Both the position numbers and the translations under genes were made by a program. A stretch of 42,866 nt of DNA from NCBI GenBank assembly GCA_000341795.1, contig AODO01000019.1, forward strand, positions 1 to 42,866, written 5' to 3'. The notes under the pieces were generated by a model that was not told where the DNA came from, ran no database searches, and saw only the letters and a program-made list of their open reading frames with translations. The stretch is from Rhodococcus triatomae BKS 15-14. GTDB taxonomy: Bacteria; Actinomycetota; Actinomycetes; Mycobacteriales; Mycobacteriaceae. Positions 29,190 to 37,470 of the stretch are shown one piece after another (position 1 is the stretch's first letter; each line of letters begins with the position of its first letter).

Positions 29190-30317
29190 TCATGCGGGTT
29201 CGACGATCGCGGTGATGGCCGTGATCTCGGCGCCGGGAACCGCGAAGTGCTCCGTCAGCGCGACGGTGACGGTCTCGTCCCCGACGCCCATGTCGAGGAG
29301 GAACCGGGCGACGACGTCGGTGCCGAATTCGGTGAAGGTGAGCTCGCGAATCGCGGTGAGCGGCAGGTACTGGGCGCCGGTCTCGAGTTCGCGGATGATC
29401 TCGGGGCCCGAGTCGCCGGTTCGTGTGCCGTTCTCCACGCGGAAACAGTCGGCGGCGAGACGCACCTTGCTCGCATCGTGACTGAGAAGCGAGCCGAGGT
29501 ACTCCCGCGCCATCGCCACCCGCGGACTGTCGGCGACCGCCCCGGTGAGGTCCGCAATCTCCGACAACAGCGCGGGCGCGAGGTCGGGGCGGCAGATGAG
29601 CAGGTCGGGCAGGTACGGGTGATCCTCGTTGTACCGCAGCGCGGTCCCGTCGACACGGGAGCAGTGCAGTCCGGCGGCGAGTGCGACTCCGACCGGGGCC
29701 GCGGAGTCCCATTCCCACTGTCCACCCGCGTGCACGTAGGCATCTGCCTCTCCGCGGAGGACCGCCATCGCCTTCGCCCCCGCCGACCCCATCGGTTCGA
29801 GGTCGCCGCCGATCCGCTCGGCCAGCGGCGCGGCGAACTCCGGTGGGCGGCTGTCGCTGACCAGGATTCGTGGCCGAGCACGTTCGGTGAACGCGGCGCT
29901 GCAGGTGTCGCTGCGGTACACCCGCCCCAGCGCGGGCTGCGCGACCGCCGCGGCGGTGATTCCCGCGCCCCGCTCCCACAGCGCGACGTGTACCGCCCAG
30001 TCCGCGCGCCCGGGCAGTCCGAACTCGCGGGAGCCGTCGAGCGGGTCGATGATCCACACCCGCGCCGACCCCCGCCGGGCCGGGTCCTCCACCGACTCCT
30101 CGGAGAGCACGGCGTCGTCGGGCCGGTGCTCGGCGAGCATCGTCAGCAGCAGGACGTCGGCGTCCGCGTCGCCCCGGCGGCTCAGCTCCCGGGCAGCCGC
30201 CTTCGGCAACGGGTCCGTGCCCAGCTCGCGATCCCGCAGGGCGAGCAGCAGGTCGCCGGCCCGCGCAGCGAGCTCGGCCGCGAGCTGCGCGTCGTCCAGT
30301 TCGAATTCGGTGCTCAT
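29190..30317 (-). CDS. cysQ: 3'(2'),5'-bisphosphate nucleotidase with C-terminal NTF2-like domain
   Basis: CysQ removes the 3'-phosphate of PAP, the by-product of PAPS-dependent sulfotransferases, and can also act on PAPS. Residues 1 to about 260 form the inositol-monophosphatase-type domain with the metal motif [12 protein letters not shown] and the second metal site [16 protein letters not shown]. The protein then continues in frame for about 107 residues (from near [10 protein letters not shown], residue 269). The pattern of that tail resembles an NTF2/SnoaL-like domain, which ordinary CysQ lacks. The ATG at 30317 overlaps the cysNC stop by 4 bp (ATGA). The CysQ call is strong; the nature of the tail is inference. 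Confidence 0.9.
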
Positions 30318-32164
30318 CGGACCAGATACTCCATGATCGCGGCGGCCTGCGCGACCGGATCGCCGTCCGCCGGCGTCAGGACGAGCTCGGCCCCCTCGGG
30401 GCGCTCGTAGGGGTCGTCGATTCCCGTGAAACCGGTGATCTCGCCCGCCCTCGCCCGGGCGTACATGCCCTTCGGGTCGCGCGCCTCGCACTGCTCCAGC
30501 GGCGTGTCGACGAACACCTCGACGAATCGAAGTCCCGCGGCCTCGTGTGCGGCGCGCACTCGGTCGCGGTCCTCGCGGTACGGGCTGATCAGCGACGCGA
30601 CCGCAACCATGCCCGCGTCGGCGAACAACTGCGCTACGGCTCCCACACGGCGGACGTTCTCGGCGCGGTCGTCGGCACCGAACCCGAGGTCGGCGTTGAG
30701 CCCGTGCCGGAGGTTGTCGCCGTCGAGGCGGTAGGCCGGGATCCCGGACGCCACCAGCGCGCGCTCCAGTTCCGCTGCGACGGAGGACTTCCCGGACGCG
30801 GACAGGCCGGTGAGCCACACGGTCGCTCCGCGGGTGGCGCGCTCGCTGCGGTCGATGGTGGCGCTGTGCCAGACGACGGCGGACTCCCGCAGTGTCGGAC
30901 CGGTGATCATGCCGGCCGCGACGGTGTTGCCGGTGGTGTCGTCGACGAGGACGAAGCTGCCGGTGACGCGATTGCGCCGGTAGGGGTCGAACAGCAGTGG
31001 CTGCTGTGAGCGCAGCTGGACGCGACCGATCTCGTTGAGCCGCAACGATCCGGCGGACTCGTCGCGGTGCAGCGTGTTGACGTCGAGCCGGTAGTCGAGC
31101 CGCTCGATCCGCGCTTTCGTGGACCGGGTGGTGTGCAGCAGCGTGTAGTTTCCGCCTTCGGACAGCTCGGACTGCTCGGTGAGCCAGCAGACCATGGCGT
31201 CGAGTTCCTGCCCGACCTGGGGGCGGTTGTTCGGACGGCACAGGGTGTCGCCGCGCGCGACGTCGATGTCGTCGGTCAGGCGGATACAGACCGCCGCGGG
31301 CGCGAACGCCTCGGCCATCGGAGCACCGCCCGGACCGTGGATCTCGGCGATCTGCGTTGCGCGTCCGGAAGGCAGTACGACGACGTCGTCGCCGGGCTTG
31401 AACACACCGCTGGCGACGGTCCCCGCGTACCCGCGGAAGTCGTGCAGGTCGGCGTCGGTCTGTCGCTGCGGCCGGATCACGTACTGAACGGGGAAGCGGG
31501 CGTCGATCAGGTTGCGGTCGGACGCGACGTGCACCTCCTCGAGCAGGTGCAGCAGCGAGGAGCCCTCGTACCACGGCATACTCTCGGTGCGGGTGACGAT
31601 GTTGTCGCCGCGCAGCGCGGACACGGGGACGAAGGACAGGTCGTGGACGTCGAGTTTCGCGGCGAACTGCCGGAATTCCTCGCAGATCTCCTCGAACCGG
31701 TCCTGCGACCAGTCGACGAGATCCATCTTGTTGACGCACACGACGAGGTGGGGAATGCCGAGGAGTGTCGAGAGGAACGCGTGCCGCCTGGTCTGCTCGA
31801 GCACGCCGTTGCGGGCGTCGACGAGGATCAGGGCGAGGTCGGCCGTGGACGCCCCGGTGACCATGTTGCGGGTGTACTGCTCGTGGCCGGGGGTGTCGGC
31901 GATGACGAACTTGCGCCGCGGGGTGGCGAAGTAGCGGTGCGCGACGTCGATGGTGATGCCCTGCTCGCGTTCGGCCCGCAACCCGTCTGTGAGCAGGGCG
32001 AGGTTCGCGTGCTCGTCGCCGCGTTCACGGCTGCTGCGCTCGACGGCTTCGAGCTGATCCTCGAAGATCGACTTCGAGTCGTAGAGGAGCCGGCCGATGA
32101 GCGTCGACTTGCCGTCGTCGACGCTGCCCGCGGTGGCGACACGAAGTAGCTGCTGCTGCGACAT
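30314..32164 (-). CDS. cysNC: Bifunctional sulfate adenylyltransferase subunit 1 / APS kinase
   Basis: A 616-residue fusion. Residues 1 to about 430 are CysN, an EF-Tu-like GTPase that drives APS synthesis with CysD: P-loop GSVDDGKST (13-21), [12 protein letters not shown] and NKMDL. Residues 445 to 616 are CysC, which phosphorylates APS to PAPS: P-loop GLSASGKS (453-460), [12 protein letters not shown] and [20 protein letters not shown]. The ATG at 32164 shares one base with the cysD stop (TGATG). With CysD the protein gives PAPS from sulfate, two ATP and GTP. No cysH, sulfite reductase or transporter gene is nearby, so PAPS made here may be for transfer rather than assimilation. Confidence 0.96.
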
Positions 32165-33102
32165 CAGAAGTACCCCTCCTTCTTCCGGTCTTCCATGCCC
32201 GCCTCGGAGATGCGGTCGTCGGCACGGGTGGCGCCGCGTTCGGTGATGCGGCTCGCCGCGACCTCGGCGACGACGTCCTCCGGGGTGACGGCCGTGGACT
32301 CGACGCACCCGGTGCAGGTGGCGTCGCCGACGGTCCGAAAGCGCACGAGCTCCTCGTACGACTCCTCGCCGGGGAGCAGGGTCAGGAACCTGGTGTGCGC
32401 CAGCAGCATCCCGTCACGCGGCACGACCGGCCTGCGGTGTGCGTAGTAGATCGACGGCAGGTCGATCCGCTCCGCGGCGATGTACTGCCAGATGTCCAGC
32501 TCGGTCCAGTTCGACAGCGGGAACACGCGGATGTGCTCACCCTTGCGGTGCCTGCCGTTGTAGAGGTGCCACAGTTCCGGACGCTGTGCCCGCGGGTCCC
32601 ACTGCCCGAATTCGTCGCGGAAGCTGAAGACGCGCTCCTTGGCCCTGGCCTTCTCCTCGTCCCGGCGCGCACCGCCGAAGACGGCGTCGAATCGGCCGTC
32701 GCGGATGCCTCGCAGCAGGGCGTGGGTCTGAAGACGGTTGCGGCTCGCGCGCGGTCCGGATTCGTCGACGACGCGGCCGGCGTCGATGTCGTCCTGCACG
32801 CTGGCGACGACGAGCCGCAGCCCGTGCTCGGCGACGACACTGTCCCGGAACTCGATGACCTCGTCGAAGTTGTGCCCGGTGTCGACATGCATGACCGCGA
32901 AGGGCAGCGGCGCGGGCCAGAAGGCCTTGAGTGCGACGTGCAGCATCACGACCGAGTCCTTGCCGCCGGAGAAGAGCAGCACCGGCCGCTCGAACGTCGC
33001 GGCGACCTCCCGGAAGATGTGCACCGCTTCGGCTTCCAGCGCCTCGAGATGCGTCAACTGGTAGTTGGGCGGAGAACTGGCAGGTGGGGACTGTGCTGTC
33101 AT
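32164..33102 (-). CDS. cysD: Sulfate adenylyltransferase subunit 2
   Basis: The catalytic subunit of ATP sulfurylase (CysDN type), a PP-loop protein. The 312-residue protein has the pyrophosphate loop SGGKDS (45-50), [11 protein letters not shown], the [14 protein letters not shown] motif and [15 protein letters not shown], all typical. The ATG at 33102 has GGAGG upstream. It is the first gene of the leftward operon cysD-cysNC-cysQ-hydrolase. Its promoter region (33,103-33,204) carries a 16-bp palindrome and a KstR-type box, the same pair as in front of the rightward sulfotransferase operon. Confidence 0.96.
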
Positions 33103-33115
33103 CGAGCCTCCGGGG

Positions 33116-33177
33116 CTACAGTCGGTACATTTTTGTACCGCATCGGTACCAAAATGGAAGTGTGACGCCGACTGTAG
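33116..33177. repeat. 10-bp inverted repeat around the cysD operator
   Basis: CTACAGTCGG (33116-33125) and its exact reverse complement CCGACTGTAG (33168-33177) flank the 16-bp palindrome. The right arm overlaps the KstR-type box. It may be a further protein-binding dyad or a looped structure. A lone GGTACC half-site lies at 33145-33150 between the arms. Confidence 0.6.
33124..33139. promoter_or_regulatory. 16-bp palindromic operator, cysD side
   Basis: GGTACATTTTTGTACC: two perfect 6-bp arms around a 4-bp centre, 21 bp before the cysD start. An almost identical site lies at 34189-34204 ahead of the sulfotransferase operon. The adjacent IclR-family protein is the natural candidate to bind it (inference). 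Confidence 0.75.
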
Positions 33178-33188
33178 AACGCGTTCCA
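33175..33188. promoter_or_regulatory. KstR-type box, cysD side
   Basis: TAGAACGCGTTCCA matches all fixed positions of TnnAACnnGTTnnA, the known binding consensus of KstR, the TetR-family repressor of sterol catabolism in mycobacteria and rhodococci. It lies 72 bp upstream of the cysD start, beyond the 16-bp palindrome. Confidence 0.6.
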
Positions 33189-33204
33189 GTACCGGTCAAT
33201 GCCG

Positions 33205-34134
33205 TCAGCGCACCACCCGGCTCGGCGCCCGCCCACCGAACTCGGCGGTGACGGCATCCGCCACACCGACCAGAGCCAGCCCCCTGCGCTCGATGTCGAC
33301 GCCGGTGATCGACCCGCCCACGTCGAGGGTGAGCACCATCGACTGCCTGCCGTCCGCGTCGTAGACCGGGGCCGCGATCAGACTCACCGGATACTCGACG
33401 TCCGCCTCCCTCTCACGGCCGAGATGGACCCGCTCGCCGAGACTCGAGACCATTTCACCCACCAGTTCCCGCAGTTCGGCGGGCAGGTTGCGATCGGCAA
33501 CCCCGGCCATCAGGGAGAACAACCTGCGGCCGGTCGGCGTGAGCCGCTCGACGAGGTACCCGGACTCCCGGCAGTCGTCGACCACCCGCCGCAGAAGGTC
33601 GTGATCGAGGACCACGGGGAAGGCGGGTTCACGGTCGAGCCACCGCGCGAACTCGTCGTCGTGACTCCACAGGACGTACATCAGCCCGACCGGCGGCGCG
33701 AACGGGTACACCTGGCCCACCCGTGCCGCGGCTCGTCCGGCCTCGGCGCCCGGCGGGATCGCCACCTCGAGGATCATCACCTGGTCGCCGACAACAGCAG
33801 ACGCGGTGCACACGGCACCGAAATCGGCGGCGAGAGCGTCCAGGTGCGGGCGCACGACCGATCCGGCGGCGTACCCGCGCTGCGCTGCCCGGCCGGCCGC
33901 GATCAGCGCGGGACCGAGCCCGTACCGGGCGTCGGCGTCCCGCGTGAGATAGCCACCCCCGACCAGGGCGCCGAGGATGCCGAGGCATGTCGGCTTGCTG
34001 ATCCCCAGGTCGCGAGCGAGTTCCGAGAGCCCGAATCGCCCGTCCGGACGGGCAACGAGATGGTCGAGCACCTGGACGACCCGCTCGGTCGGCGGTGAGC
34101 GACGCCCGGTGACGTTGTCCGGCTCGGCAGCCAT
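33205..34134 (-). CDS. IclR-family transcriptional regulator
   Basis: A 309-residue regulator. The N-terminal winged helix-turn-helix (about residues 16-66) contains ERVVQVLDHL and FGLSELARDLGISKPTCLGIL. The C-terminal IclR effector domain follows, with VYPFAPPVGLMYVLWS and ending VVLTLDVGG-type strands. The ATG at 34134 has AAGGAG seven bases upstream. The frame is open further upstream, but that is the divergent promoter region. It lies between the PAPS operon (same strand) and the DUF1214-SDR-sulfotransferase operon (opposite strand). Effector unknown; a sulfated or steroid-like ligand is speculation. Confidence 0.9.
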   Translation of the reverse strand: MAAEPDNVTGRRSPPTERVVQVLDHLVARPDGRFGLSELARDLGISKPTCLGILGALVGGGYLTRDADARYGLGPALIAAGRAAQRGYAAGSVVRPHLDALAADFGAVCTASAVVGDQVMILEVAIPPGAEAGRAAARVGQVYPFAPPVGLMYVLWSHDDEFARWLDREPAFPVVLDHDLLRRVVDDCRESGYLVERLTPTGRRLFSLMAGVADRNLPAELRELVGEMVSSLGERVHLGREREADVEYPVSLIAAPVYDADGRQSMVLTLDVGGSITGVDIERRGLALVGVADAVTAEFGGRAPSRVVR

Positions 34135-34145
34135 TGACCACTCCT

Positions 34146-34159
34146 TAGAACACGTTCTA
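34146..34159. promoter_or_regulatory. KstR-type box between iclR gene and DUF1214 operon
   Basis: TAGAACACGTTCTA is a perfect 14-bp palindrome (around the central AC) that fits TnnAACnnGTTnnA. It lies 11 bp upstream of the iclR-family gene start, touching its ribosome-binding site, and 80 bp upstream of the DUF1214 gene, so it could control both. Confidence 0.7.
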
Positions 34160-34188
34160 TGGTCTGAGCAAGAATCTTCTACCACTTG

Positions 34189-34204
34189 GGTACATATTTG
34201 TACC
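34189..34204. promoter_or_regulatory. 16-bp palindromic operator, DUF1214 side
   Basis: GGTACATATTTGTACC has the same arms as the site at 33124-33139, differing only in the 4-bp centre. It lies 35 bp before the DUF1214 start, near where a promoter is expected. Confidence 0.75.
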
Positions 34205-34239
34205 ACTATCGAGTGGCACCAGCGACGCAAGGAGCGGGA

Positions 34240-35481
34240 GTGACAGATCAACTGGGCGCGGCGTCCCCGATGGCCGGGGTCGGCGTACCGACGGGGCCGT
34301 TGACGGGACCGCTCACGGACGCGATCGCCGAGGCGGAGGCACTCGTCGCCGCGGCGCCGCACATCCGGTCGGAGCAGGACCTGCTCGAGGGTTACCAGTA
34401 CCTGGCGGGCGGCATCCTGGCCTGCGTGCACGCCGCCTGGGCGACCGAGAAGACGCATCCGAACTTCATCCAGGGCACCGGGCCGTACATGAAGATGGGC
34501 CTGGACAACCCGGACACCCTGTACTTCGGCGCACGCATCAACGACGACGCCGAGTACGTCGTCACCGGCGTCCGCGGCACCACCTGCGACCTCAGCTTCC
34601 AGGTGCTGAGCGGGAACTACACCGACTCCAACGTCCCGGGCAGCGAATCGGCCTTCGACGACCGCGCCATCGACATCGGCTCCGACGGTCACTTCGAGGT
34701 CCGGTTCGGACCGGCGCAGCAGGACGGATCCCCGTACGGCGGCGGAGCCCGCAACCACTTCACCCTGGCGCCGGGTGCATCCCAGCTGGTGGTGCGCGAG
34801 GTGTACAGCGACTGGTCGCAGCGCCGGGGGTCGGTCCGGATCGAGCGGGTGGACCGCATCGGCGTCGCCTTCGACGCGCTCACCCCCGAGGAGACGGCCA
34901 AGCGTTTCTCGCGCGCCGGAAAAGCGCTGATCAGCCGTGTCAAGACGTGGCTACAGTTCCCCGAGTGGTTCTACCTCAAGCTGCCGGTGAACACGATGAC
35001 GGAGCCACGACCCACCCCGGGTGGCCTGGCGACACAGTTCTCCTCCGTGGGCCACTACGACCTCGCCGACGACCAGGCGATGATCATCACCGTCCCGAAA
35101 TCCGATGCGCCGTATCAGGGCTTCCAGCTGGGCAGCATGTGGTACATCTCGCTGGACTACACCGGACACCAGACGTCGCTCAATCACAACCAGGCACAGG
35201 TCGATCCGGACGGGATGATCCGGATGGTCGTGTCGGAGCGTGATCCCGGCATCACCAACTGGATCGAGACGGTCGGGCACCCACGCGGGATCCTGCAGTT
35301 CCGCTGGCAGCGCACCTCGCGCGACTTCACGCCCGCCGACGGCCCGACCGTCGAGGTCGTGCCCGTCGACGAGGTCGCGGCGAAACTACCCTTCCACGAA
35401 CAGAACCGGATCACTCCACCGGACTGGGCAGCGCGCATCGGCGCCCGCCAGGCGGCCGTGGCCGACCGGATGCTCGGCTAG
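34240..35481 (+). CDS. DUF1214-like protein, first gene of sulfotransferase operon
   Basis: A 413-residue protein with no membrane segment. Its C-terminal region (GSMWYISLDYTGHQTSLNHNQ, then RDPGITNWIETVGHPRGILQFRWQ) resembles DUF1214 proteins; the family's activity is unknown. The N-terminal half has YLAGGILACVHAAW and a long beta-rich stretch (VVTGVRGTTCDLSFQVLSGNY). From memory, the M. tuberculosis KstR-regulated trio Rv3531c-Rv3530c-Rv3529c has the same order (unknown protein, SDR, sulfotransferase). The GTG at 34240 has AAGGAG 5 bp upstream; the open frame before it is promoter sequence. Confidence 0.75.
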   Translation: MTDQLGAASPMAGVGVPTGPLTGPLTDAIAEAEALVAAAPHIRSEQDLLEGYQYLAGGILACVHAAWATEKTHPNFIQGTGPYMKMGLDNPDTLYFGARINDDAEYVVTGVRGTTCDLSFQVLSGNYTDSNVPGSESAFDDRAIDIGSDGHFEVRFGPAQQDGSPYGGGARNHFTLAPGASQLVVREVYSDWSQRRGSVRIERVDRIGVAFDALTPEETAKRFSRAGKALISRVKTWLQFPEWFYLKLPVNTMTEPRPTPGGLATQFSSVGHYDLADDQAMIITVPKSDAPYQGFQLGSMWYISLDYTGHQTSLNHNQAQVDPDGMIRMVVSERDPGITNWIETVGHPRGILQFRWQRTSRDFTPADGPTVEVVPVDEVAAKLPFHEQNRITPPDWAARIGARQAAVADRMLG

Positions 35482-35527: not shown

Positions 35528-36310
35528 ATGTCTCAACTTCTGCAGGATAAAATCGTCGTCATCTCCGGCGTCGGGCCCGCCCTGGGCCGGACACTGGCGC
35601 TGCGCTGCGCCGAGGCCGGCGCCGACCTGGTGCTCGCCGCCCGCACCCAGTCACGTCTCGACGAGGTCGCGAAGGAGGTCGCGGACCTGGGCCGGCGCGC
35701 GCTGACCGTGGCCACCGACATCACCGACCACGCCTCGGTCGAGAATCTCGTCGCCGCCACGCAGGACGCCTACGGCCGCGCCGACGTGCTGATCAACAAC
35801 GCATTCTCGGTGCCCTCGATGAAGCCGTTGGAGCGCACCGATTTCCAGCACATGCGTGACGCCGTCGAACTGACGGTGTTCGGTGCCCTGCGACTGACCC
35901 AGCTGTTCACCCCCGCGCTCGAGGAGTCCAAGGGCGCCGTGGTGAACGTGAACTCGATGGTCCTGCGACACTCCCAGGAGCGTTACGGCAGCTACAAGAT
36001 GGCCAAGTCCGCCCTGCTGTCCGTCTCGCAGTCGCTGGCAACGGAGCTGGGACCCAAGGGAATCCGCGTCAATTCGGTTGCGCCCGGCTACATCTGGGGT
36101 GACACGCTGCAGCAGTACTTCGCACACCAGGCCAACAAGTACGGCACGACGGTCGAGCAGATCTACGAGCACACCGCCGCGAGCACCGACCTCAAGCGAC
36201 TGCCCACGACCGACGAGGTGTCGGACGCGGTGATCTTCCTGGCCTCCCCCATGGCCAGCGGGGTCACCGGACAGTGCCTCGACGTCAACTGCGGCGAATT
36301 CCACCACTAG
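35528..36310 (+). CDS. Short-chain dehydrogenase/reductase (SDR)
   Basis: A classical SDR of 260 residues, NAD(P)-dependent. The cofactor loop is SGVGPALGR (13-21), a variant of TGxxxGxG. NNA (90-92), catalytic Ser143, Tyr156 and Lys160 (YKMAK) are all in place. The C-terminus GVTGQCLDVNCGEFHH is family-like. The ATG at 35528 lies 46 bp after the DUF1214 gene. The substrate is unknown; a hydroxy or keto lipid that is then sulfated by the next gene's product is an attractive guess. Confidence 0.92.
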   Translation: MSQLLQDKIVVISGVGPALGRTLALRCAEAGADLVLAARTQSRLDEVAKEVADLGRRALTVATDITDHASVENLVAATQDAYGRADVLINNAFSVPSMKPLERTDFQHMRDAVELTVFGALRLTQLFTPALEESKGAVVNVNSMVLRHSQERYGSYKMAKSALLSVSQSLATELGPKGIRVNSVAPGYIWGDTLQQYFAHQANKYGTTVEQIYEHTAASTDLKRLPTTDEVSDAVIFLASPMASGVTGQCLDVNCGEFHH

Positions 36311-36324
36311 AGGATCCGAACCAC

Positions 36325-37470
36325 ATGACTGAGAGCACCGAGCGCACCACGGTCGGCACCGTCGAGGACCTGCACGCCTCGGCCACGAAGATGACCGGCA
36401 TGACCGACTTCGGCGTCGACGACTACACCGAGGCCCTCGGCGTCCTCCTCGACTCCTACGCTCGCGACGAGGACCTGACTCCCTTCGGCAGCAAGATCTC
36501 TCGCGTGTTCCTGCGCGGAGCACTCGTCGCACGGCTGCTGTCGGAGGCGGCGTGGAAGGCGAATCCCGAGCACGCGGACGTCTCCATCGATCGCCCGATC
36601 TTCGTCACCGGACTACCACGCACCGGCACCACCGCACTGCATCGCCTGCTCACCGTGGACCCGGCGCACCAGGGCCTGGAGATGTGGCTGACGGAGATGC
36701 CCCAGCCGCGGCCGCCACGGGACACGTGGGAGTCGAACCCGGTGTTCCAGGGAATCGAGGCACAGTTCAGCCGGCACCACGTCGAGCACCCCGAGTTCAT
36801 GGGCGTGCACTACATGTCGGCCGCGGAGGTCGAGGAGTGCTGGCAGCTGCTGCGGCAGACGTTCAAGTCGGTCTCGTACGAATGCCTGGCGAACCTGCCG
36901 ACGTACTCGAAGTGGCTCGAGGGCCAGGACTGGACGAACGCCTATGCGCGGCACAAGCAGAACCTGCAGTTGATCGGCCTGCACGATCAGGATCGACGCT
37001 GGGTACTGAAGAACCCGAGTCACCTGTTCGCGCTCGACGAGCTGATGGCGGTGTATCCGGACGCCCTGATCATCCAGACGCACCGTCCACCGAGCACGAT
37101 CATGGCGTCGACCTGCAGCCTCGCCGAGCAGGCCACCGAGGGCTGGTCCAACAAGTTCCACGGCGAGGTGATCGGACGCGGTCAGCTCGAACTGTGGGCA
37201 CGTGGGCTGGAGACGTTCACCGCGGCACGAGAGAAGTACGACCCCGCCCAGTTCGTCGACGTCGACTTCGGCGATTTCCACGCGGACCCGCTCGGCACCG
37301 TCGAGGACATCTACTCCCGGTTCGGGATGTCCCTGAGTTCAGCGGCGCAGCAGAACATGGAGGCCCTGCACGCGGAGTCGCAGACCGGCGACCGCAAGCC
37401 GGCACACCGCTACACGCTCGAGGAGTACGGCCTCACCGAGGCCGAGGTGAACGAGCGGTTCGGGGTCTGA
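36325..37470 (+). CDS. PAPS-dependent sulfotransferase family protein
   Basis: A 381-residue protein of the broad sulfotransferase family found in mycolate bacteria. The PAPS 5'-phosphosulfate loop is TGLPRTGTTALHRLL (95-109). The 3'-phosphate region is probably RWVLKNPSHLFALDELMAVYPDALIIQTHR. The N-terminal 90 residues are helical. The ATG at 36325 follows the SDR gene by 14 bp. Its donor would come from CysD/CysNC and its product PAP be removed by CysQ, all encoded a few kb away under what look like shared operators. Acceptor unknown. Confidence 0.88.
   Translation: MTESTERTTVGTVEDLHASATKMTGMTDFGVDDYTEALGVLLDSYARDEDLTPFGSKISRVFLRGALVARLLSEAAWKANPEHADVSIDRPIFVTGLPRTGTTALHRLLTVDPAHQGLEMWLTEMPQPRPPRDTWESNPVFQGIEAQFSRHHVEHPEFMGVHYMSAAEVEECWQLLRQTFKSVSYECLANLPTYSKWLEGQDWTNAYARHKQNLQLIGLHDQDRRWVLKNPSHLFALDELMAVYPDALIIQTHRPPSTIMASTCSLAEQATEGWSNKFHGEVIGRGQLELWARGLETFTAAREKYDPAQFVDVDFGDFHADPLGTVEDIYSRFGMSLSSAAQQNMEALHAESQTGDRKPAHRYTLEEYGLTEAEVNERFGV

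Follow-up and report, generated by a model that had tools for sequence, protein, structure and literature searches.

Why should an operon for making PAPS and an operon for using it stand on either side of one regulator gene and carry the same two upstream sites? The question is raised by a locus in Rhodococcus triatomae BKS 15-14, on a contig (C19) that is in its entirety the window analysed here (42,866 nucleotides of a 5.82-Mb genome). The initial annotation placed a 16-bp palindrome close to cysD and to a DUF1214 gene, with a KstR-type box further upstream of each. All four sites (GGTACATTTTTGTACC, GGTACATATTTGTACC, TAGAACGCGTTCCA and TAGAACACGTTCTA) were present exactly at the coordinates claimed, and the two promoters do have one order in common, with the 16-mer nearer the gene and the KstR-type box upstream of it (Table 1).

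Layout of the locus

ATP sulfurylase, APS kinase, a putative PAP phosphatase and a sulfotransferase are all encoded at the one locus, as judged with Pfam and NCBIfam. In the leftward operon, the start of cysNC overlaps the stop of cysD (32164), and the inositol-monophosphatase-family gene that follows is probably cysQ, a PAP phosphatase role suggested by PF00459. In the rightward operon, the DUF1214 label held for the family and not for the window protein: PF06742 was matched by 19 of 24 aligned relatives (best 6.3e-06), while the window protein itself matched no Pfam family up to E = 1. The GLPRTGTT region of the sulfotransferase was invariant or almost so in 21 aligned members. Its match in the PDB, 2zq5, extends over 380 residues (E 1.2e-169) and carries the database title "putative uncharacterized protein"; we take this entry to be the mycobacterial sulfotransferase Stf1. 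No substrate was found for the window sulfotransferase or for 2zq5. The closest named relative found was Rhodococcus sp. RD6.2, with 91% identity between the two IclR proteins. An RNA element in the 5' leaders was considered and rejected, as no Rfam family matched up to E 0.1 across 32900-34400.

Table 1. Genes and putative control sites of the locus, by position in the window
Feature	Position	Strand	Evidence or score
Inositol-monophosphatase-family gene	29190..30317	-	PF00459 on part 29190-30020
cysNC, GTPase subunit fused with APS kinase	30314..32164	-	Pfam GTP_EFTU + APS_kinase
cysD, sulfate adenylyltransferase small subunit	32164..33102	-	PF01507, NCBIfam CysD
IclR-type palindrome GGTACA-N4-TGTACC, cysD promoter, GGTACATTTTTGTACC	33124..33139	-	profile 26.3 bits
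cysD upstream half-site GGTACC; ACC at -8 to -6 from palindrome, 5 nt gap	33145..33150	-	67/69 cysD-side operators
Putative -10 TACAGT of cysD, KstR box overlapping	33171..33176	-	promoter alignment
KstR box TGGAACGCGTTCTA (minus-strand reading; TAGAACGCGTTCCA), cysD promoter	33175..33188	-	23.2 bits
Putative -35 TTGACC of cysD	33194..33199	-	promoter alignment
iclR-family regulator gene, 309 aa, between cysD and the DUF1214 operon	33205..34134	-	HTH_IclR 1.4e-07
Putative -35 TTGACC of DUF1214 operon, overlaps iclR start codon	34134..34139	+	promoter alignment
KstR box TAGAACACGTTCTA, DUF1214 promoter, also 11 bp before iclR start	34146..34159	+	17.3 bits
Putative -10 TATGGT of DUF1214 operon	34158..34163	+	promoter alignment
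DUF1214 upstream half-site TACC, 5 nt from palindrome	34180..34183	+	98/106 DUF1214-side operators
IclR-type palindrome GGTACA-N4-TGTACC, DUF1214 promoter, GGTACATATTTGTACC	34189..34204	+	profile 31.2 bits
DUF1214-type protein gene, GTG start	34240..35481	+	19/24 family members match PF06742
Short-chain dehydrogenase (SDR)	35528..36310	+	PF13561 6.2e-49, NCBIfam PRK07890
Sulfotransferase (Sulfotransfer_3)	36325..37470	+	PF13469 1.7e-56; PDB 2zq5 1.2e-169

Rarity of the palindrome

The exact 16-mer pattern had two matches in the 5.82-Mb genome, both at this locus, and the reversed pattern, used as a control, had none in the whole genome. The genome scan proposed as a check on rarity thus found the 16-mer nowhere else, and two intact pairs are, as had been claimed, hard to explain by chance. 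When up to three mismatches were allowed, the window held 7 matches vs. 6.9 expected, so among 16-mer matches only the exact copies are unusual; chance palindromes were rejected as an explanation for the exact sites, with no window excess at ≤3 mismatches. That IclR governs a wider regulon in the genome was likewise rejected at the level of the exact 16-mer, the scan for exact matches giving only these two sites.

The upstream motif as a KstR box

Using a KstR profile built from published KstR sites, for which leave-one-out scoring of the known sites gave a range of 16.6-31.3 bits, both window boxes scored inside that range (23.2 and 17.3 bits). In random sequence with the dinucleotide make-up of the window, none of 4.28 million positions reached 17.3 bits. 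The TNNAACNNGTTNNA pattern is not rare by itself, since it had 36 genome matches vs. 12 for the reversed control. A third match to the pattern, at 37147-37160, lies inside the sulfotransferase gene and does not rank among the window's six best profile scores; we take it as chance.

The genome has a KstR orthologue, a TetR-family gene (C1:92758-93414) that matches PDB chains named KstR with a best E of 2e-87 and adjoins a TAGAACGTGTTCTA box; the gene facing it is presumably FadE34-like. Other KstR boxes stand at P450 and thiolase genes, at an FAD-dependent oxidoreductase gene, and at genes for a reductase with a 2Fe-2S domain, an acyl-CoA-dehydrogenase-type protein and an alpha/beta-hydrolase. 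The predicted domains of these box-associated genes, which we assume to be CYP125, FadA5, KstD, KshB, HsaA and HsaD, are as expected for sterol breakdown. The profile scores, the presence of a KstR orthologue and the boxes at other sterol-type genes together bear out the assignment of the second motif as a KstR-type box. The orthologue was found in 24/24 genomes tested, including some whose locus is without the box, so a KstR box is not obligatory at the locus.

Is this KstR site new? In PMC1995591 the Rv3531c promoter is listed as KstR-bound, with a positive gel shift; no published gel shift with KstR turned up for cysD. Searching 396 genomes of one genus, g29, with the published Rv3531c probe and one mismatch allowed found three loci, in each of which the box directly precedes a gene for a protein 59-60% identical to the window DUF1214 protein, followed by an SDR. 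We infer from these close relatives, the link being drawn through their match to the probe, that the DUF1214-type operon belongs to the mycobacterial Rv3531c family. The Rv3531c promoter would then serve an operon of the same kind, a DUF1214-type gene and then an SDR, with the KstR box inside a TTGAC/TANNNT promoter. The three probe-matching loci differ from the window in lacking the IclR operator and, within flanks of ~1.5 kb, iclR itself. If this counterpart is the right one, what is new about the KstR half is its setting, the biology being known already.

The IclR-family protein and a survey of relatives

The protein encoded between the operons matched HTH_IclR at 31.6 bits, above the Pfam cut-off, and IclR_C at 19.3 bits, below the 24-bit cut-off. 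An IclR-family chain in the PDB matched residues 21-196 (2.6e-13), and the helix-turn-helix was conserved in 27 aligned members. It shares HTH_IclR with the PcaR/PcaU/PobR-like regulators, to which NCBIfam likens it at a score (31.8 bits) far from the cut-off of 284.75. As with IclR-family regulators, a palindromic site and a gene beside the presumed targets are found here too, both putatively. No close characterised IclR relative was found, the best solved-structure match being an unnamed IclR-family entry, and a target set of PAPS and sulfotransferase genes was not found for any IclR-family regulator in the literature searched.

To see how palindrome and regulator are distributed, 401 genomes of the family were searched with the IclR protein, and 167 matched at E ≤1e-30; the source genome had two matches, the second weaker. 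Among the matches listed, 110 loci were read, namely the best 30 and 80 lower ones chosen by hand. Duplicates (L003-L009), pieces of the window (L001 and L002) and loci in which the DUF1214 gene or iclR was not found (L010, L011 and L117) were dropped before counting. The counts are over 109 loci, including the window and a few second copies per genome (e.g. L091 beside L019 in G064), and in all 109 a DUF1214-type gene adjoins iclR. Genera carry group numbers (g6, g9, g10, g14, g16, g22 and g29), of which g22 appears to be Nocardia-like and g29, judged by its hit with the probe published for M. tuberculosis, Mycobacterium-like. The window site served as seed for a 16-position palindrome profile, which was then trained on the DUF1214-side regions and used with a cut-off of 14 bits; independent of this training are only the cysD side and the loci that have no linked iclR.

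The palindrome reached 14 bits on the DUF1214 side of 106/109 loci and on the cysD side of 69/86 with a linked cysD. The DUF1214-side regions below the cut-off were those of L085, L105 (just below) and L109. The best score in the 109 iclR coding sequences, a control, was -1.46 bits, and shuffles that kept base composition reached 14 bits in 1/2180 cases for the DUF1214 side and 0/1720 for the cysD side. The strict KstR 14-mer was found on the DUF1214 side of 98/109 loci and the cysD side of 63/86, the latter rising to 76/86 with a relaxed form. Missing cysD-side operators were concentrated in g22 (12/13 loci) and g16 (4/4), with one more in g10 (L031). In g16 only 21-54 bases separate cysD from iclR, so cysD may have no promoter of its own there.

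Loci without a linked iclR gave a different picture. This set of 48 comprises 30 loci from g9, 15 from g29 (14 genomes that gave no IclR match) and 3 more from g29, two of its members (L226 and L236) coming from the same genome. The g9 loci are the best 30 of 50 matches, the DUF1214-type gene being present in 50/52 g9 genomes, and one of these genomes (G249, L199) has an IclR match elsewhere. L219-L221 were picked by their match to the KstR probe, and iclR absence there covers the linked flanks only. In the 30 g9 loci read, DUF1214-SDR-sulfotransferase directly follows another coding sequence, and linked iclR, operator and KstR box are all absent. Each of the 18 g29 loci that lack linked iclR has a KstR box in a TTGAC/TANNNT promoter (9 strict, 9 relaxed), three of them having been selected by the box itself through the probe match. 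The operator stood at the DUF1214 promoter of 106/109 iclR-linked loci vs. 0/48 without linked iclR (Fisher p 3e-37), and within g29, where operon and promoter are held fixed, of 12/14 vs. 0/18 (Fisher p 4e-7); both p values are too small because the loci share ancestry. These contrasts strengthen the proposal that the adjacent IclR-family protein owns the palindrome. Since the operator comes and goes with linked iclR, this protein is the best candidate for binding the 16-mer on comparative evidence; operator and gene may also have been lost together simply as neighbours.

The exact 16-mer itself occurred in 86/401 genomes of the family vs. 14 for the reversed control, and in 67/167 genomes with this IclR vs. 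19/234 without (hand counts; Fisher p 1.4e-14 for the latter). Four g6 genomes have an extra exact copy with an AT-rich spacer (L176, L177, L178 and L185, at 1501-1516), near a large membrane-protein-like gene and remote from the iclR locus. The 16-mer GGTACAAAAATGTACC was also found in three g9 genomes whose proteins gave no IclR match at E 1e-30 (L172, L173 and L174, at 1501-1516), flanked by a hydrolase-like gene and by a second gene that looks like fgd1.

The two inputs can be found apart. Each of the paralogous loci L091 and L116 combines DUF1214-SDR-sulfotransferase with iclR, cysD and cysNC. Neither has a KstR box, and the operators at both of their promoters read GTTCCA-N4-TGGAAC or nearly so; the two loci are possibly a sterol-independent version of the module. 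Two g14 loci retain the exact 16-mer and have no KstR box. With KstR boxes that lack iclR and operator, and operators that lack a KstR box, the inputs are separable in both directions, and by this reading of the promoters the KstR and IclR inputs evolve separately.

A shared promoter design and an extended putative operator

Promoters from both sides were aligned on the palindrome in gene orientation. Across the 109 loci, window included, the 16-mer turned out to belong to a longer conserved element. At 98/106 DUF1214-side and 67/69 cysD-side operators, a half-site with ACC at its end lies 5 nt upstream of the palindrome. Part of the palindrome's right half thus recurs 21 bp further upstream, an arrangement that would fit binding by a dimer of dimers. 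Further upstream, TTGACN-N17-19-TANNNT was found in 88/106 DUF1214-side promoters and TTGACN-N17/18-TANNNT in 68/69 cysD-side promoters. The ACC half-site and the shared -35 and -10 hexamers are additional to the sites of the initial annotation.

In both window promoters the KstR box occupies the spacer and overlies the putative -10, and it overlies the -10 in most of the aligned promoters as well. In non-g29 DUF1214-side and in cysD-side loci with both sites, the operator lies 19-31 bp downstream of the putative -10 wherever a -10 was found; in the window it is 25 bp downstream of the core promoter on the DUF1214 side and 31 bp on the cysD side. Transcription is predicted to start near 34170 and 33164, so both operators would be in the transcribed leader. 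Where both sites were present, the KstR box was upstream of the palindrome in 85/85 DUF1214-side loci outside g29, window included, and in 64/64 cysD-side loci. In g29 the operator was upstream of the KstR box in 8 such loci and downstream in 4, one of which (L105) scores just under 14 bits. This reversed order speaks against a single fixed mechanism across lineages.

Leaders may also vary. In four g29 loci without linked iclR (L221-L223 and L232), a GTG stands ~6-7 nt after the -10 of the DUF1214 promoter, and the operon of such g29 loci may give a leaderless transcript. The predicted leader of iclR-linked loci outside g29 carries the operator.

Which cysD carries the putative operators

The genome has three cysD copies, and the window copy was the only one with either motif. 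The copy on contig C40 adjoins NIR_SIR (sulfite-reductase-type) and PAPS_reduct genes and looks assimilatory from these neighbours; that on C5 has its own inositol-monophosphatase-type gene. Neither the operator nor a KstR box was found within 400 bp upstream of the C40 and C5 copies. In the C5 region (G000:C5 60000-67000, L169) cysD, cysNC and a phosphatase gene form a third such set, and SnoaL-like and SDR-like genes lie nearby. Co-control of unlinked cysD in g29 was rejected, as neither motif occurred in the 400 bp upstream of 19 cysD copies in 14 iclR-linked genomes. With the other copies free of the motifs, the proposed double control belongs to the linked copy, and cysD is linked in most lineages, not all. 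The suggested dual control of PAPS supply and sulfotransferase is accordingly supported by the DNA layout and by the two other cysD copies without motifs.

The M. tuberculosis cysDNC genes offer a comparison. According to PMC3141025, CysD and CysNC lead to PAPS for sulfotransferases and there is a CysQ-type phosphatase, much as in the window; sulfur limitation and cysteine are among the cues to which cysDNC responds there. Unlike the M. tuberculosis genes as treated there, the window's separate copy carries sterol-type and IclR-type putative operators.

Proposed mechanism and alternatives

We regard the shared sites as a real observation and, on comparative evidence, as functional. The operons for making PAPS (cysD-cysNC-cysQ-like) and for using it (DUF1214-SDR-sulfotransferase) probably form a small regulon with one promoter design under a double block by KstR and the IclR-family protein. 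The inducers of KstR are sterol-derived CoA thioesters. KstR would block polymerase at the core promoter until such a thioester releases it. The product of the intervening iclR-family gene would bind the operators further downstream, probably as a dimer of dimers whose half-sites are spaced by 21 bp, and would block initiation or early elongation until its own ligand arrives. Both operons would then open only during sterol degradation combined with a second signal, and PAPS and sulfotransferase would appear together.

The same two sites could serve an IclR protein that activates, or that a ligand switches between repression and activation, leaving KstR as the sole repressor. IclR-family members include activators and repressors, according to a review title in the reference list of PMC8281962, and the upstream operator of the 8 g29 loci misfits a downstream block and would agree better with activation or with iclR controlling its own gene. 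We nevertheless think activation unlikely for the window, given the downstream operator in every non-g29 DUF1214-side locus (85/85) and every cysD-side locus (64/64) with both sites, and given that 19-31 bp past the putative -10 is an awkward position for an activator. With the window's layout, IclR is likely to repress, not to activate.

That some other regulator binds the palindrome, the link to iclR being one of neighbourhood only, is improbable in our estimation. It would account for the 16-mer beside the presumed fgd1-like gene in the three g9 genomes that gave no IclR match at E 1e-30, and for the extra copy near an unrelated membrane-protein-like gene in four g6 genomes; against it, the operator is absent from 18/18 g29 loci without linked iclR even though promoter and operon are kept, and it is kept in iclR-linked loci (chosen by iclR) that have no linked cysDNC or no KstR box. 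We give equally little credence to an ordinary KstR regulon gene beside a local regulator that only controls itself, with a cysD operator of no meaningful effect on PAPS. Such an arrangement would fit the linked cysD without operator in 12/13 g22 and 4/4 g16 loci and the unlinked cysD with neither motif in the 14 g29 genomes tested, and it sits poorly with an operator at 69/86 linked cysD promoters and with a cysD-side half-site conserved at the same offset in 67/69 loci. The double block by KstR and IclR thus remains the reading we prefer.

Implications for sterol metabolism

KstR binding at the Rv3531c promoter, in what we infer to be the mycobacterial counterpart, is already known (PMC1995591). 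As far as our searches go, the putative IclR operator, the double control and the dedicated PAPS supply appear to be new. No work joining KstR with this IclR gene, cysD or this sulfotransferase was found in the literature searched, which included the available parts of PMC6429209, PMC7062782, PMC8281962 and PMC4482099 and lay outside subscription papers and preprints. Nor was a role for the KstR regulon's DUF1214-SDR-sulfotransferase operon stated in the literature covered.

The two shared putative operators tie this operon to its own PAPS supply and predict a sulfated sterol-related product, made only once both regulators release; the ligand of the IclR protein would be a handle on that product. 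The operator, half-site included, is defined well enough for searching other genomes. Tentatively, and with considerable doubt on our part, mycolic-acid bacteria may use sulfation in breaking down sterols, either as an on-path step or for detoxification, with the IclR protein sensing a sterol intermediate or its sulfate and, together with KstR, opening a closed module that runs from PAPS to sulfotransferase. If so, the sulfate group might act as a leaving group or a solubilising tag, and the core of the module, DUF1214-SDR-sulfotransferase, would be the same as in the mycobacterial KstR regulon.
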